Assembly (NCBI RefSeq): GCF_000186865.1
Contig: NW_008705674.1
Coordinates: 2,426-12,790 of the forward strand
DNA: 10,365 bases
DNA from: Aureococcus anophagefferens
Lineage: Eukaryota > Sar > Pelagophyceae > Pelagomonadales > Pelagomonadaceae
Reading direction: 5' to 3'
Part shown: piece after piece, positions 528-7,541 of the stretch
Layout: each line of letters opens with the position of its first letter
Numbering within the stretch: the first letter of the stretch is position 1
The notes under the pieces: generated by a model
Told to the model about the DNA's origin: nothing
Seen by the model: only the letters and a program-made list of their open reading frames with translations
Database searches by the model: none
Translations under genes and position numbers: made by a program

Positions 528-1271
528 TTAGTGCTGGTGCGTGAAGAAGGACGCCGCCGTGAGCCAGCCGAAGGACGTCGTCGCGATGAAGCCGATGCGC
601 AGCGGCACGGGCACGACCGTAAAAACGAGCATGTTCGCGGGGACCCAGACCGTGTAGTAGCGCCGGCACATGTCCGCGGCCTCGCCCTTGTAGCGCTCGA
701 GCCCCGCGCGCCAGCCGTCGCCGTCGTAGAGCACGTGCTTGTAGGCGTAGTACACGGGGAAGCACACCTGTGTGGAAATCAACCAGTGGAACGCCCTGTC
801 CAGCAAAAACTTCTCTAGCTCGGTCAAATCGAAGTCGATTCGGCTGATTTTTGGACGGATCGATTGCTCTCGTCGAGTTCTCGAAACACAGCCGAAGAGT
901 CTGGTCCAAACCGTTCGATTACGCGAAAATTGAAGTCAACTTGAAGATTTGATTGCCACGCAGAAGCACGCGAGCGGGATGTGGAACGCGCTATCGAACG
1001 CGACCTTCCGCGCGGCGTTGTAGACCGTCGTCTCCAACCCGAAGAGCGACGCGTAGCCCACGTTGTAGAGCGCGTGCTGGAACCAGCCGCAGTACCAGCC
1101 GCCGTAGAACGCGAAGACGCCCGTGCGCTTCCAGTCCTGCTCGCTCCGGCCCTCGACGACGCGCTGGCTGAAGGCGTCGGCGAGCATGCCCTTGAAGGTG
1201 CAGCTCGCGAAGGCGACGCTGTAGGGCCGCCGCGTGCTCAGCTCCGCGTAGGCCGCGACGAGCCGCGCCAT
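528..1271 (-). CDS. Mpv17/PMP22-family integral membrane protein, two exons
   Basis: Exon 1 is 1271-972 (100 codons) and exon 2 is 767-528 (79 codons plus stop). The 179-residue product is close to human MPV17 (176). Mpv17/PMP22/Sym1 proteins are small four-helix proteins of the mitochondrial inner or peroxisomal membrane. Family features: the N-terminal 'L..Y..L..RP' start, then FKGMLADAFSQ, a Gly/Trp-rich segment (FYGGWYCGWFQHALYN), a D-x3-H-x-P motif before the splice site, and the C-terminal signature WVPANMLVFTVVPVPLRIGF (residues 141-160) ending in W168. Joining CTC to GTG restores the family spacing (DSAFHIPL|VCFPVYY) but needs a GC donor. A GT donor at 959 is also in frame and would add four residues. 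The intron is a mobile introner, listed separately. The ATG at 1271 is the first in frame and fits the family start. Confidence 0.88.
768..963 (-). mobile_element. Introner element copy 1, forms the Mpv17-like intron
   Basis: This 196-bp element reads CTGCGTGGCAATCAA at its 5' end. The reverse complement of its 3' end reads CTGTGTGGAAATCAA, a 13/15 terminal inverted repeat. Flanking 8-mers are GCGTGCTT (971-964) and GTGTGCTT (767-760), matching at 7 of 8 positions, which is a target-site duplication. The 3' end CACACAG supplies the splice acceptor. The donor GC is the start of the left duplicated 8-mer, so the spliced intron is 971-768 (204 nt). The interior shares long near-identical blocks with the intron at 4456-4639, for example CCGAATCGACTTCGATTTGA. 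No protein-coding capacity is evident, so it would be non-autonomous. Confidence 0.85.
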
Positions 1272-2075
1272 GGCGCGGCCGCTGTGCCGTCACCGCTGGC
1301 GGCTGGAGAGCTCGTCACCTCGTTTGCTCTCCGAGGCGATGGCCGGGGTCGATGGCGTCGCCCTGTCGCGCAGTCGCGCTCCGGGCGACCGGTGCCTGGC
1401 TGGATCGCGAGGACCTCTCTTGCGGGACGTGGGTCTGTGGGTACTTCGTGGTGCTTCCTGGGTTTCGGCGCGCGACTGATCTCGGCGAACCGCGGCGGCG
1501 CGAGCGGCGTCCGTCACGGTGTTCGCGGCTCGCGAATTCGCGCGCCGTAGCTCCTAGGGAAGTCGCCAGCGTGTGCGCCCCCGGTTGCGGCCGCGCCGGA
1601 GCGTCGCTTCTCGAACGCACGCAGCCCGCTTTCTAGGCGTCTCGGGAGATTTTGATGCCGGCTCTTTGAGCTTGCTTGAAGATCCTGGCGACTCAGCGTC
1701 TCGCCCCAGAAGGACCACCTCGTCGCTCTTAAAACTCCCGCCTCGCTCACCGTGCGAGCCAGTGTCATCGACTTACTTCGCTCACGCACTCCCGCCCGCC
1801 CCGCCTGATACCGCCCTAACCCCTGCGGGCGCTGAACCCCTCGGAAAAAGCGCTCGTGAGGCTTCGGCGGAGAAACCGTCCGAAGCGGGACTGTGACGAG
1901 ATTTGCCGCCGTCGCGGGGCGTCAAAAATGAGGCGGGGCGCCCGGCGGCCGACGTCGGTACCGGAAAGACGGCCTCGACGCCGCCCCCGGAAATCGAGGG
2001 CGCGCTCGCGGGTCGCCTCGCGCGCGACCCGATAACGAGAGTGAAGTACGACCCGGACGCGCACGCAGGTTAATC
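1272..2075. other. Intergenic region, no recognisable gene
   Basis: This is the divergent gap of about 800 bp between the Mpv17-like start (1271, minus) and the H1-like start (2076, plus). Short open frames exist on both strands, but their translations are Arg/Ser-rich with no domain or motif that I recognise, as expected by chance at this GC content. I see no tRNA, rRNA or transposon end. It should hold the promoters and 5' leaders of both genes. A CAG at 2066-2068 just before the H1-like ATG could be an acceptor for an unseen leader intron, but nothing else supports that. Confidence 0.5.
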
Positions 2076-2714
2076 ATGGCCGCCAAGAAGCCCGCTTCCA
2101 AAAAGCCTGCCGCGAAGAAGGCCGCGCCGAAGAAGAAGACTGTCGCGAAGAAGCCGGCCGCGAAGAAGGTGCGCTCCCGCCATCGTCGAGAAGCTTTGTC
2201 CGTACGTGTTCCGACTCTCTTCTCCATAGGCCGCGCCTAAGCCCAAGGCCGCGCCCAAGCCCAAGGCTGCGCCGAAGAAGAAGGCGGCACCGAAGAAGAA
2301 GGCGGCGCCCAAGAAGAAGGTGAGCGACCGCCGTCGTCGAGAGACTGTCGGAGCGCTCCGACTCGTTTATCGTAGGCCGCGCCCAAGCCCGCCGCCGCGA
2401 AGCCCGCCGCGAAGCCCGCCGCGAAGCCCGCCGCTAAGCCCGCCGCGAAGCCCGCCGCCGCCAAGCCCGCGGCGAAGGTGAGCGCCCGCTGTCGCCTCGG
2501 GAAGTTTTTCCAGACTCCGCGCCAACTCTTGTACCCGTAGGCCAAGAAGGCCGCGCCGGCCAAGAAGAAGACCGTCGCCAAGAAGCCCGCGGCGAAGAAG
2601 GCCGCGCCCAAGGCGTCCAAGGCCACGGGCTCGCGCAAGTCCTCCCGCAAGTCGCTCTTGAGCAACGTGCCCGTCGCCGAGCGCGGCGCGGCCATGAAGG
2701 CCGCCGCCAACTAG
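2076..2714 (+). CDS. Histone H1-like Lys/Ala/Pro-rich chromatin protein, four exons
   Basis: Exons are 2076-2168, 2230-2319, 2376-2477 and 2541-2714, giving 152 residues ending at TAG. All junctions are phase 0 and read AAG|GT...TAG|GCC. The protein is made almost wholly of AAKK, AAPK and KPAA units, like the unstructured C-terminal tail of linker histone H1. No winged-helix (globular H5) domain is present, so it resembles the tail-only H1-like proteins of some protists and the Lys-rich nucleoid proteins of bacteria. The expected role is binding and compacting DNA in the nucleus. The last 30 residues differ (SKATGSRKSSRKSLLSNVP...) and carry Ser next to basic residues that could be phosphorylated. 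The ATG follows an in-frame TAA at 2070-2072. The alternating unspliced open frames on the opposite strand are shadows of the repeats. Function is inferred from composition. Confidence 0.8.
2169..2229 (+). other. Intron 1 of H1-like gene (61 nt)
   Basis: GTGCGC donor and CCATAG acceptor, phase 0 between two Lys/Ala codons (AAG|GCC). Removing it keeps the Lys-Ala-Pro frame open. It shares sequence blocks with introns 2 and 3, notably CGTCGAGA and TCCGACTC with intron 2. Confidence 0.85.
2320..2375 (+). other. Intron 2 of H1-like gene (56 nt)
   Basis: GTGAGC donor and ATCGTAG acceptor, phase 0, AAG|GCC junction. Its first 11 bases differ from those of intron 3 at a single position (GTGAGCGACCG against GTGAGCGCCCG), and it shares CGTCGAGA and TCCGACTC with intron 1. 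Confidence 0.85.
2478..2540 (+). other. Intron 3 of H1-like gene (63 nt)
   Basis: GTGAGC donor and CCCGTAG acceptor, phase 0, AAG|GCC junction. The 5' third is clearly related to intron 2. The middle is more diverged but keeps an AACTC block before the acceptor. Confidence 0.85.
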
Positions 2715-2814
2715 GCGCCTTTCCGGAAGGCCGAAGAGCCGCCGGGCCCGAAGCGTCCAAGACCGCCACGCGGTATTCCCCGGTCCCCGCGGCGCGCCCG
2801 GGTCGTCGCTGCAA

Positions 2815-2956
2815 CTCTCCAGTAACCACTCCCCGCGCAAAAAGAAGCTACTCGCCAGTAATCCACGAAAGCACAGCAACTACAAGCACGAACACCTCTA
2901 CAGTGACGAAAAGAGGCCACTCTCGAGTAACCACGAAAACACCTCTACAGTTACGA
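2815..2956. repeat. Degenerate short direct repeats in a convergent 3' gap
   Basis: Between the H1-like stop (2714) and the stop of the minus-strand PP1-docking protein (2982) lie interspersed near-repeats. AACACCTCTACAGTGACGA (2891-2909) recurs at 2938-2956 with one mismatch. CTCTCCAGTAACCAC (2815-2829) recurs in altered form at 2851-2865 and 2920-2934. The stretch has visibly more A and T than its surroundings. No gene is seen here. It may be the remnant of a minisatellite within overlapping 3' untranslated regions. Confidence 0.6.
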
Positions 2957-2981
2957 TACAGGGTCCGGACGCGCACGCCTC

Positions 2982-3551
2982 CTACGCGTCCTTCGCGCGG
3001 CTCGCGGCGCGGCGGCTCGGCCGCGCGTTCTTTTCTCGAGGCGACTGATTGAGCCAGTGGTTCTGCTGGAGCGGGCCGTGCTCGAGCTTCGCCTTGACGG
3101 CGGGGCTGATGCGCGCCTGCTTGTGGTTGCGCTCGCGCGACGCCTTGGGCGACTCGACGCCGGGCCCGAAGGACACGCGCCGGTCGGACACGGGCGTCGC
3201 GCCGGCGCGCAGCGCGCTCCGGACCGGCGTGCCGTCGGCGCGCAGCGCGCTCCGGACCGGCGTCGCGTCGCCGCGCGGCGTCGCCGCGGGCGTCATCTCG
3301 ACGTCCGGCGCGAAGGAGATCCGCGCCTCGCGCCGCTGCGCGACGGGCGTCGTCTGCGCGACGACGGCTACGGCGTCGCTCACGTCGATGGCCAGCGTCC
3401 GCCGCGCCGCCGCCGCCAGAACAGCATCATCGTCGTCGTTGTTCGTAGCTTCTGTGCGGCTCGAAGACGTCGCCTCCCGAGATGCTGCAGGCCGCATCGT
3501 CGACGGCGTCGACGGCGGCTCGACGATCTGCACCTTTCGTTGAGCGCTCAT
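2982..3551 (-). CDS. Putative PP1-docking phosphoprotein with duplicated RVxF-type motifs
   Basis: The 189-residue protein starts MSAQRKVQIV. An in-frame ATG at 3584 would add 11 residues. The open frame extends further upstream, but only antisense to the release factor. It looks intrinsically disordered. Two related blocks, ARISFAPDVEMTP (residues 76-88) and RRVSFGPGVESP (124-135), each contain an RxSF-type sequence matching the RVxF docking motif for protein phosphatase 1. RVSFG is also the form found in the mitotic PP1 targeting proteins Ki-67 and RepoMan. Between them lies an 11-residue repeat, TPVRSALRADG/TPVRSALRAGA, followed by TPVS. At least ten Ser/Thr-Pro sites make CDK or MAP-kinase control plausible. 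It shares a divergent 111-bp gap with the release factor. The family is unknown, and PP1 binding is inferred from motifs alone. Confidence 0.6.
   Translation of the reverse strand: MSAQRKVQIVEPPSTPSTMRPAASREATSSSRTEATNNDDDDAVLAAAARRTLAIDVSDAVAVVAQTTPVAQRREARISFAPDVEMTPAATPRGDATPVRSALRADGTPVRSALRAGATPVSDRRVSFGPGVESPKASRERNHKQARISPAVKAKLEHGPLQQNHWLNQSPREKNARPSRRAASRAKDA
3204..3263. repeat. 33-bp tandem repeat inside the PP1-docking gene
   Basis: A 27-bp block at 3204-3230 recurs exactly at 3237-3263, a period of 33 bp. This encodes the 11-residue TPVRSALRA repeat on the minus strand. The near-perfect DNA identity points to a recent in-frame duplication. Confidence 0.8.
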
Positions 3552-3662
3552 GGAGCTGCGACGAGCGGCACGCGTCGCGACCATCGTGCCAACGTCGAGA
3601 GTCTCTTGGCTTGGTCGAGCTGCCGCAACCACCACCGCTGTCGTCGCCGTCCACAGCGAGCC
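3552..3662. promoter_or_regulatory. Probable bidirectional promoter gap
   Basis: A 111-bp gap separates the minus-strand start at 3551 and the plus-strand release-factor start at 3663. Both genes must be driven from here or from within each other. No TATA-like or other core element is recognisable. Confidence 0.35.
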
Positions 3663-5020
3663 ATGCGCGGCATGCGCGCGCTCCGGCGCCTCGCGAACCC
3701 GATAGTCGGTCGCAGGGCTCGCCGGCGCGTCAGCGCGGCGGCGCTGCGGGCGCTCGCGGCGAAGCGCGGCCGCTACGACGAGCTCTGCGCGGTGGCGAGC
3801 GCCGAGGTGCTGGCGCCGGCGGCGGCGCGGGAGCTGAGCGAGCTCGGCGAGATTCTCGCCTGCCAGGAGGCCTGGGAGGGGTGCGTCGCGGAGCTGGACT
3901 CGCTGGCCGAGCTCGAGGACCGCTGCGCGGCGGCGACGCCGTCGGCGACGCGGAGCTGCGGGACGAGGCGCGGCGCGAACGCGAATTACTGACACCAAAA
4001 GTAGCGACACTCGCACACGACCTCACAGCAAAACTGCTGCCGCGGGACGCCGTCGACGACGCGCCGGCGTGCCTCGTCGAGGTCAAGGCCGCGGCCGGCG
4101 GCGACGAGGCGAGTTTGTTCGCGGGCGACCTCTTGGCCATGTACGAGCGCTTCGCCGGGCGCCGCCGCCACGGCTGGGACTTATTGAGCGTGACGAAGAG
4201 CGACTGCGGCGGCGTGAGCCACGCCTACGCCGAGGTCAAAGGGCCGGGCGCCTACGGCGCGCTCCGCTTCGAGTCGGGCGTCCACCGGGTCCAACGCGTG
4301 CCCCGGAACGACGTGCGCATCCACACGTCGACGGCGTCCGTCGTCGTCTTCCCGGCGGGCGCCGAGGACCGGGGGGCCACCGTCGACTTCGACCCGGCGG
4401 AGCTCCGGATAGACACGTTCCGCGCGTCCGGCGCGGGCGGGCAGCACGCGACTACCCGTATGGAAATCTTCAACCCGACTTCAATGCGAGCGTATCAAAA
4501 TGTTTCGACACGAGCACATCCGCCGTGCTTCGAGAACTCGATGAGAACAATGGATCCGTCCAAACCGAATCGACTTCGATTTGACCGAGCTAGAAAGTTT
4601 GGTCGGGACGTCCCAAACCAGCGGTCGATTTCCACGCAGGTGAACACGACGAATTCCGCGGTCCGCGTGACGCACCTCCCCACGGGCACGGTCGTGTCCA
4701 TCCAGGACGAGCGGTCCCAGCACCGCAACAAGGCCAAGGCGCTCAAGGTGCTCGCGAGCCGCGTGGTCGGCGCGCAAGCCGCCGCGGCCGCGGCGGCGCG
4801 GTCCGCGTCCCGCGCGAAGCTCGCGGGCAGCGGCGACCGCGCGGAGCGCATCCGCACCTACAACGCGCCCCACGACCGCGTCACGGACCACCGCTCCGGC
4901 TTCACGGCCAACTCCGTGGACCGCGTGCTCCGCGGCGACCTCCTCGACGACGTCGTCGCGTCCCTCGAGGCCGCGGACCGCGACGCGCGCATGGTCGAGT
5001 TCGAGGAGAGCAGCGCGTAA
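3663..5020 (+). CDS. Organellar class-I peptide chain release factor, RF1 type
   Basis: Release factors hydrolyse peptidyl-tRNA at stop codons. Exon 1 is 3663-4447 and exon 2 is 4640-5020. With one base restored in the frame break at about 3916-3950, the product is about 388 residues (E. coli RF1 has 360). Residues 1-25 are Arg-rich and nearly free of acidic residues, a likely mitochondrial presequence. The helical domain continues into LLPRD and the AAGGDEASLFAGDLLAMYER block. Then come FESGVHRVQRVP, RIDTFRASGAGGQH|VNTTNSAVRVTHLPTG (catalytic GGQ at about 259-261), QDERSQHRNKAKA and GDRAERIRTYN. The stop-codon recognition loop is unusual: E. coli VPATESQGRIHTS corresponds here to VPRNDVRIHTS, so the PxT tripeptide is absent and the loop is two residues shorter. 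An introner splits the gene directly after GGQH. ATG 3663 is the first good start. The 3' end may overlap the next gene. Confidence 0.88.
3916..3950 (+). other. Reading-frame break in the release factor gene
   Basis: Upstream of this interval the RF1-like sequence (DSLAELEDRC) is in one frame. Downstream (GDAELRDEARRERELL, then LLPRD) it is in another. One missing base in the GC-rich GCGGCGGCGACGCCG run would fix it. The unspliced length matches E. coli RF1 here, and no GT-AG pair of suitable phase was found, so an assembly error is more likely than an intron. Confidence 0.7.
4456..4639 (+). mobile_element. Introner element copy 2, forms the release factor intron
   Basis: This 184-bp element starts CCGTATGGAAATC and ends GATTTCCACGCAG. 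The ends form an inverted repeat matching at about 10 of 13 positions. It is homologous to the element at 768-963 over most of its length, with a strongly conserved core (about 4527-4592) that includes CTTCGAGAACTCGA and CCGAATCGACTTCGATTTGA. The right flanking 8-mer is GTGAACAC (4640-4647) and the left is GCGACTAC (4448-4455), a diverged duplication with 5 of 8 matches. Splicing from GC at 4448 to CAG at 4639 removes 192 nt and restores GGQHVNTT. The one nearby GT donor (4459) would shift the frame. Confidence 0.85.
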
Positions 5021-6580: not shown

Positions 6581-7541
6581 TCAACACCCCTTACTCGCCC
6601 CCCGGGGCAAGACGTGGACGTGGACGTGGGGCACGGACTGGCCGGCGCAGGCGCCGTCCTGGGATCCCCGGCGACGTTCGCGCCGGCCGCGCCGTAGTGC
6701 CGGAGCACGAGCGCGTGGACCTCGCGCGCGGTGCGCCAGAGGTCCGCGTGCTCAATGTCGTCGAGGTCCGCGAGCGACCTAAACGACGAAAGGGTCCCAT
6801 CGACATAAAAAAAGGGAGACTCAAAACTCACGGCACGTTCTTCGCCGGAACCACGAGCACGTGGCCCGGCACGAGCGGCTTCAGGTTCACGATGGCGCGC
6901 GTCAGCCCCGACGCGGACACGTAGAAGACCTGGCGCGGGTCCAGGTCGAACCTCCCGAAGCGCACGGCGCCCGCCGGCCGCGGCCCGCTCGCGACGGCGA
7001 CGCCGTTCGCGCCGACGGGCTCCCGGGCCATCGCCAGCGCCGTCGCCGCGTACGCGTCGGCCTCCGCGGCCATGTCGTCGGCCGTGCGCGGCGCGCGGGC
7101 CTCGTCCGGCGGCACGTCGAGGGTCACGGCGGGCGACGCTTCGCCGCCGGGCGTCCAGCCGTCGATCATGCCGTAGACCAAGTCGTTCTCCGGCAGGTCG
7201 CCCCGCGTCCGCGGCACGAGGTGCACGTGGCAGTGCGCCACGGCCTGGCCCGCGGCGGCGCCGTCCTTGATCGCGACGTTGAAGGCGTCGGCGGCCGGCG
7301 CCGCGCGCTGCGCCGCGCGCACGGCCGCGGCGACGTCGTCCGCCTCGGCGGCCGTCAAATCGCCGTAGCGCGCGACGGGCCTTCGCGGCGCGACGACGAC
7401 GTGGCCGGGCAGCAGGGGGTTCAGCGAGCCCAGCGTCACGCTCAGGTCGCTCGACCGCTGCGGCGCGACGCGCAGGCCGCCGAACTCGAAGGCCGAGCTC
7501 GCGAGGCCGCTCATGACTGCGACGACGGCGCGCCGCCGCAT
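6581..7541 (-). CDS. Tandem FHIT-like HIT-domain protein, two HIT domains
   Basis: HIT-family nucleotide hydrolases/transferases such as FHIT cleave dinucleoside polyphosphates through an HxHxH motif. Exon 1 is 7541-6832 and exon 2 is 6778-6581, about 302 residues after one base is restored near 6657-6674. Domain 1 (about 15-170) has NPLLPGHVVVAPRRPV, KDGAAAGQAVAHCHVHLVPR (HxHxH at 103-107) and the FHIT-type tail GDLPENDLVY...ADDMAAEA. Domain 2 (from about 195) has FGRFDLDPRQVFYVSASGL, VNLKPLVPGHVLVVPAKNV and QDGACAGQSVPHVHVHVLPR. Both catalytic triads look intact. Domain 2 lacks the GDxxxND tail; a GTAAGG at 6594-6589 may be a donor for a further exon not found here. An alternative start is Met at 7514. 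It is divergent from the Tex-like gene across 143 bp. FHIT normally has one domain, so the duplication is the unusual point. Confidence 0.82.
6657..6674 (-). other. Reading-frame break in HIT domain 2
   Basis: The frame carrying GAAGANVA changes to the frame carrying QDGACAGQS within about 15 bases. One missing base would join them into the expected HIT sequence. A 50-nt GT-AG splice (GTGCTC...CCCAG) also restores the frame but would delete the conserved segment before QDG, so an indel or assembly error is preferred. Confidence 0.65.
6779..6831 (-). other. Intron of FHIT-like gene (53 nt)
   Basis: Canonical GTGAGT donor, a T-rich centre and a TTTAG acceptor. It splits a proline codon after two bases, and splicing gives AKNVP|SLADLDDIE, as expected for a HIT domain. 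It is not related to the introner elements. Confidence 0.85.

Follow-up and report, generated by a model that had tools for sequence, protein, structure and literature searches.

Two GC-AG introns of Aureococcus anophagefferens as very probable insertions of an introner, and a possible origin of GC donors from target duplications

The stretch of DNA analyzed here (the window, 10,365 nucleotides of contig NW_008705674.1 of Aureococcus anophagefferens, corresponding to C82:2426-12790 in the searched genome of 49.05 Mb in 86 contigs) has a G+C content of 72% and carries two introns that are homologous, although their host genes are unrelated, one coding for an Mpv17/PMP22-like protein and the other for peptide chain release factor 1 (RF-1). 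Both introns are very probably insertions of a non-autonomous DNA transposon of the type called introners, and they represent, in a well-preserved state, an intron-making transposon that has been published, that is, a kind already known. The features of the two loci are as follows.

528..1271, minus: Mpv17/PMP22-like coding region, interrupted by intron 1 (end points judged by eye)
768..971, minus: intron 1, read as an introner intron, 204 nt, GC-AG (left target duplicate plus element), frame restored on removal
964..971, minus: left target duplicate GCGTGCTT, bearing the GC donor (971-964 in gene sense)
768..963, minus: putative introner element of family A, copy 1, 196 bp, ends CTGCGTGGCAATC / GATTTCCACACAG
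760..767, minus: right target duplicate GTGTGCTT, exonic (767-760 in gene sense)
3991..5020, plus: coding region of RF-1, with the domains PCRF and RF-1 and two exons, at about 3991-4447 and 4640-5020 (limits approximate, N-terminus uncertain)
4448..4639, plus: intron 2, read as an introner intron, 192 nt, GC-AG, immediately downstream of GGQH in the GGQ motif of RF-1
4448..4455, plus: left target duplicate GCGACTAC, bearing the GC donor
4456..4639, plus: putative introner element of family A, copy 2, 184 bp, ends CCGTATGGAAATC / GATTTCCACGCAG
4640..4647, plus: right target duplicate GTGAACAC, exonic

In copy 1, the ends of the element read CTGCGTGGCAATCAA...TTGATTTCCACACAG in gene sense and match as inverted repeats at 13 of 15 positions, and the flanking 8-mers GCGTGCTT and GTGTGCTT are equal at 7 of 8 positions. 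Excision of intron 1 restored a single open frame in the host gene, the spliced protein of which matched Pfam PF04117 with 35.7 bits at residues 115-170. In copy 2, the inverted match of the ends is 10 of 13, and the flanking 8-mers GCGACTAC and GTGAACAC are equal at 5 of 8 positions. Excision of intron 2 gave GAGGQHVNTTNSAVR and restored the frame of RF-1, the domains of which were identified by Pfam as PF03462 and PF00472, and the alignment of the spliced RF-1 with solved RF1 structures was gap-free across the junction. A search of the genome for another allele of the RF-1 region or exon found none, the other matches being partial with 69-79% identity. The two elements were equal at 138 of 184 aligned positions, including an exact stretch of 30 bases; both introns are of the GC-AG type, and the exonic duplicate starts with GT in both. 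The initial annotation had claimed homologous introns in unrelated genes, with these same end and duplicate matches, and its positions, ends and duplications were exact to the base, with all of its counts reproduced. Its placement of the acceptor CAG in the element and of the donor in the left duplicated 8-mer was borne out too, together with the restoration of the frame; the GC at both donors is a point absent from it.

The initial annotation had also suggested searching the genome for further copies flanked by 8-bp duplications. As a result of this search, hundreds of further copies were found, the 14-base end GATTTCCACRCAGG alone having 662 exact matches compared with 1 in the reversed control. 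A further pattern matching introner ends, which served both as a count and as a source of copies, had 359 matches with 0 in the reversed control; an initial gapped pattern had no match in the genome. The search with copy 2 returned 1649 first-look candidates, of which 40 were scored; all 40 matched the 211-base query over at least about 170 bases, 39 of them, besides the query itself, at 81-85% identity. Ninety-seven copies were read from loci fetched by homology or end patterns, and 95 of them were non-redundant, family A contributing 81 and family B 14; the 138 profile matches were from overlapping loci in which copies recur, and 29 of these matches, with a start beyond model position 16 or an end short of 190, were omitted. 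Many homologous copies sit as introns, the identified host genes being the two window genes only, and terminal inverted repeats were present across the copies. An Rfam scan of two copy-bearing loci gave nothing at E up to 1.

Family A had a modal length of 203 bp (53 of 83 copies), ends of the form CTGYG, with CTG at both when intact, and a median identity to the consensus of 90%, the lowest being 65% (80 copies). Family B, which was found through weak profile matches limited to the core (positions about 19-168), has the same core with different ends, CTGGGCAGCAAAAG... and ...CTTTTGCTGCCCTG in core orientation, and a length of 192 bp. The genome search for family B gave 2103 first-look candidates, the best 40 of which, not being a random sample, were 98-99% identical to the query, and the median identity to the consensus was 99%, the lowest being 86% (12 copies). 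The difference between the median identities of the two families indicates that family B is the recent burst. The identity to the family A consensus was 85% (166/196) for copy 1 and 90% (165/184 aligned bases) for copy 2, and the duplications of both have decayed, so that the window copies themselves are fairly old and not especially recent. The claim of active and recent intron gain in the initial annotation was thus only partly supported, being a better fit for the younger family B than for the window copies. Introner copies that are old and richer in G+C at their ends (about CTGCGCCGGAAAC), perhaps of an older subfamily of family A, were also observed in L034 and L042:5573-5779 (minus), and parts of the introner core were present in a tandem repeat at L090:74-214.

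Perfect 8-bp duplications were found around 66 of the 95 copies (11/14 in family B and 55/81 in family A, in which the boundaries were adjusted by up to 4 bases with both the ends and the duplication as guides, favoring matches), whereas 8-mers cross-paired between different copies matched at 8/8 in 0.13%. Among the 20 family A copies in which both ends fit the consensus, 15 had an 8/8 duplication. Exact repeats of 6, 7, 10 or 11 bp in the same register were found in none of the 95 copies and one of 9 bp in a single copy, and the duplicate match was below 5/8 in only three (L006, L005 and L088). L104 and L106, young family B copies outside the pattern and the counts, had perfect duplications as well. 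The duplicates of family A (n = 71) showed no clear preference beyond positions 1-2; position 8 was C in 75% of 12 family B duplicates, a sample too small to judge. The 5/8 duplicate of copy 2 is convincing because of these perfect duplications across the family. It could be argued that both window introns are old ordinary introns, the likeness of which came about by chance or convergence, as the window copies are diverged and a match of at least 5/8, as in copy 2, is reached by about 17% of 8-mers cross-paired between different copies; however, with hundreds of copies of the ends in the genome and the perfect duplications described above, such an origin is extremely improbable.

To characterize the splice sites, the gene strand was called at the empty site by codon usage, without recourse to splice sites, using the window genes and long open frames for training. 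A confident coding call was obtained for 85 of the 97 copies, with a coding margin of 66.9 for copy 1, and 83 of them (71 of family A and 12 of family B) remained after removal of duplicates. Retention of the intron would result in a frameshift or stop in 83 of the 85. The donor, taken as the dinucleotide that opens the upstream duplicate, was GC in 49, GT in 32 and another dinucleotide in 2 of the 83 copies, thus being GC or GT in 81. In family A, a GC or GT donor was present in 69/71 on the gene strand compared with 24/71 on the opposite strand (p 7e-17), and the acceptor CAG was present in 70/71 compared with 41/71 at the other end (p 7e-10), the commonest change at the non-acceptor end being from CTG to CCG. 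Furthermore, family A was used in both directions, with 43 sense and 28 antisense copies (44 and 29 before the removal of duplicates). This use of both strands, along with the 8-bp duplications and inverted ends, suits DNA transposition; it is not what would be expected if introns had been copied via RNA and inserted elsewhere by reverse splicing, which a part of PMC9860276 suggests for fungal introners; such a route would give a single strand and no duplication. Although the large share of copies in confidently coding context, reading as introns, could also be accommodated by that route, we consider it highly improbable.

In family B, the downstream end on the gene strand was CCCAG in all 12 coding calls, and the upstream end was CAGGG in 10, CAGCG in 1 and CCGGG in 1. 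The direction was against the core in 11 of the 12, and L010, which alone ran with the core, had its two end types swapped, indicating that the base at end position 2 goes with the direction of splicing. It may be that the T at position 2 of the family B end arose from A in an end of the CAGGG type. Miniature inverted-repeat transposable elements (MITEs) of the hAT type have an 8-bp duplication and CAGNG-like ends. The introners resemble them in the 8-bp duplication and in one family B end that begins with CAGGG; in family B, the two ends are CTGGG and, in 10 of 12 coding copies, CAGGG, and in family A they are CTGYG. What is added here beyond confirmation is the existence of two families with a common core, the one-base difference that tracks the direction of splicing and the statistics of the GC donors.

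The introner would thus transpose into coding DNA and duplicate 8 bp of the target, so that CAG, the last three bases of the inverted end, could serve as the 3' splice site and the GC or GT dinucleotide that starts the upstream duplicate as the 5' splice site. The spliceosome would excise the left duplicate together with the element, so that the mRNA would retain a single target copy and encode an unchanged protein. In family A, an acceptor would be readable from both intact ends and the element could work in either orientation; in family B, the CTGGG end would provide the acceptor and the usual CAGGG end none, with the working direction following the CTGGG end. Huff, Zilberman and Roy reportedly described introner elements of this alga in 2016 (Nature 538:533), and these are said to have an 8-bp duplication, with the acceptor in the end and the donor in the duplicate.

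Passages in the literature describe Aureococcus introners as having inverted ends and direct repeats (PMC7789003) and co-opted splice sites with both insertion orientations (PMC10228655), all of which, when compared by description, are found here too. Their length is given in a passage of PMC9481584 as about 210 bp, and the modal copy of family A with its duplicate is 203 + 8 = 211. The part of PMC7789003 on these introners ascribes canonical splicing motifs to them, whereas 49/83 donors were GC here; elsewhere, the same paper puts A. anophagefferens among species rich in non-canonical introns. In the survey by Gozashti et al, 2022 (PMC9860276), as far as the relevant passages go, some families likewise have the 3' splice site within the element, the 5' site coming from the duplicate. 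The same survey gives one family of Aureococcus sp. the number 4, which implies that several occur there, and describes it as carrying both splice sites and adding 12 bp to the mRNA, whereas the window copies add nothing.

Beyond the first two bases, the donor carries little information, with 0.00 to 0.12 bits at positions +3 to +8. This would be compatible with a donor chosen not by ordinary U1 pairing but by RNA pairing of the inverted ends, which would bring the 8-mer beside the acceptor, and ends of the same family A copy indeed paired better over 13 positions than those of different copies (p 0.0005 for sense and p 0.0085 for antisense). However, subfamily structure alone could yield this excess; in the older half of the copies, it held for sense (0/2000 shuffles) and not clearly for antisense (p 0.079), and the intron of copy 2 folded only slightly better than its shuffles (z -1.7). 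An RNA stem between the ends is thus suggestive, being confounded by subfamilies, and such a choice of the donor seems unlikely.

Several points weigh against the interpretation of the introns as introner insertions. Splicing was inferred from reading frames and not from RNA. A confident coding call was lacking for 12 of the 97 copies, and 2/83 had neither a GC nor a GT donor and 1/83 no CAG. Some loci were picked for an intact end, which inflates the acceptor counts in those groups; when family A was limited to loci retrieved through homology only, the result agreed, the donor being present in 25/27 compared with 10/27 on the opposite strand, and the acceptor in 26/27 compared with 14/27 at the other end. 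The 5/8 duplicate of copy 2 is, by itself, within chance. The RF-1 frame remains open when intron 2 is retained (192 nt without a stop), so that the case for its splicing rests on the split GGQ motif. Finally, no autonomous element with introner ends was found by end patterns with foreign inner sequence, although such exact patterns miss variants. On balance, the introner reading put forward in the initial annotation is supported by the many copies, the 8-bp target duplications, the inverted ends, the layout of the splice sites and the restoration of the frame.

Transposition would have been effected by a transposase not seen here. Patterns of the introner ends with foreign inner sequence had 9 matches for family B (5 in the reversed control) and 14 for family A (0 in the control); none lay close enough to another on its contig to form a pair, and the family A matches included three in loci already fetched for that family. 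The hAT transposase domain PF05699 had no match with 4 candidates scored, and PF21788 had none either, the control genomes being silent in both cases, so that absence is not shown. A P-like gene on C25 matched PF21787 with 43.2 bits, and two further P-like sequences, on C2 and C11, were 29% identical to a piece of it. Near these three loci, introner ends were matched with 3 mismatches only, and the left side of one is N. Elements of the P superfamily have a GTCCGGAC-like palindrome as their target. An origin from a P element was considered because the duplicates of the first loci resembled GTCCGGAC and one locus matched PF21787, but it is not supported, as the larger set of family A duplicates (n = 71) showed no such target and the introner-end matches around the P-like genes all had 3 mismatches. 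As separate observations, the gene on C25 (L042:1-1400; C25:178300-179700) has the PF21787 match, resembles a P-element transposase gene and is degenerate, its frame containing TAG codons, and positions 878-1007 of L042 match positions 18-147 of the introner core (48 bits) and look like a GT-AG intron without inverted ends. The other two P-like sequences (L078 and L079; C2:3449163-3449561 and C11:1394141-1394539) are 99.94% identical over 3399 bases and both lie less than 5 kb from contig ends, forming a duplicated contig-end segment that is perhaps subtelomeric.

The prevalence of GC donors bears on a known peculiarity of this alga. According to the part of PMC3033335 concerned (Iwata and Gotoh, 2011), 39.6% of A. 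anophagefferens introns are of the GC-AG type, compared with 1.3% of the introns examined there, and the origin of these introns was called an enigma, with G+C content, RNA modification or protein parts of U1 as suspected causes. In the same source, the species is the sole member of the cluster that shows the largest information deficit of the six, and a passage of a 2012 review leaves it out of a plot of branch-point versus acceptor strength as an obvious outlier (PMC3488318). We consider it an even chance that the abundance of GC-AG introns is a by-product of introners, any target starting with G-Y (G and a pyrimidine) becoming a donor and GT donors then drifting to GC. Most new donors would be GC because a genome of 70% G+C (70.5% in strain CCMP1851, as stated in part of PMC11237714) supplies the duplicated G-Y, and the drift would occur because the spliceosome of this alga, as we propose, reads little beyond G-Y.

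The share of GC among GC and GT was 78% in coding flanks, 60% at donors (n = 81) and 52% in the exonic duplicate (n = 80). This depletion relative to the flanks suggests that, on this reckoning, the acceptance of GC as a donor is about 0.3 to 0.4 times that of GT. Where the duplicates differed by T and C at donor position +2, T was in the exon and C in the intron in 6/6 cases, compared with 1/5 elsewhere (Fisher p 0.015); when L005 (family B, 8-mers equal at 1/8) was dropped, the values were 5/5 and 1/4 (p 0.048), the numbers being small. The five credible cases include both window copies, and the T/C change is the sole difference between the duplicates in four of the five. A codon-usage scan for introns other than introners was too noisy (143 clusters, with GT at 1.34, GC at 1.03 and the non-donor CA at 1.49 times background), so that a restriction of the GC excess to introners is not demonstrated, and this tempers confidence in the by-product explanation. 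Four window introns read by eye start with GT, three in a lysine-rich, histone-like gene (2169-2540) and one in a HIT gene (about 6779-6831), too few for comparison. The short introns of the lysine-rich gene (2147-2342) are mutually alike, as if duplicated with exons, the first two being 78% identical over 45 bases including exon.

Because their donors would derive from arbitrary targets, introners could account for both the GC-AG excess and the outlier status in the 2012 review. Micromonas pusilla, which has introners, would be a second case, with 22.2% GC-AG introns compared with 2.7% in Micromonas RCC299 (from the same part of PMC3033335). This link was not found stated in the parts of the literature searched, and the 2016 report of Huff et al may state it. 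Introners represent the clearest case of bulk intron creation, and the rule is readable here: one base of the end would set whether, and on which strand, the insertion is spliceable, and two bases of the target would set the donor. If introners do explain the GC-AG excess, an oddity of splicing becomes a footprint of transposition, and this alga would offer a natural test of the minimal needs of a 5' splice site.

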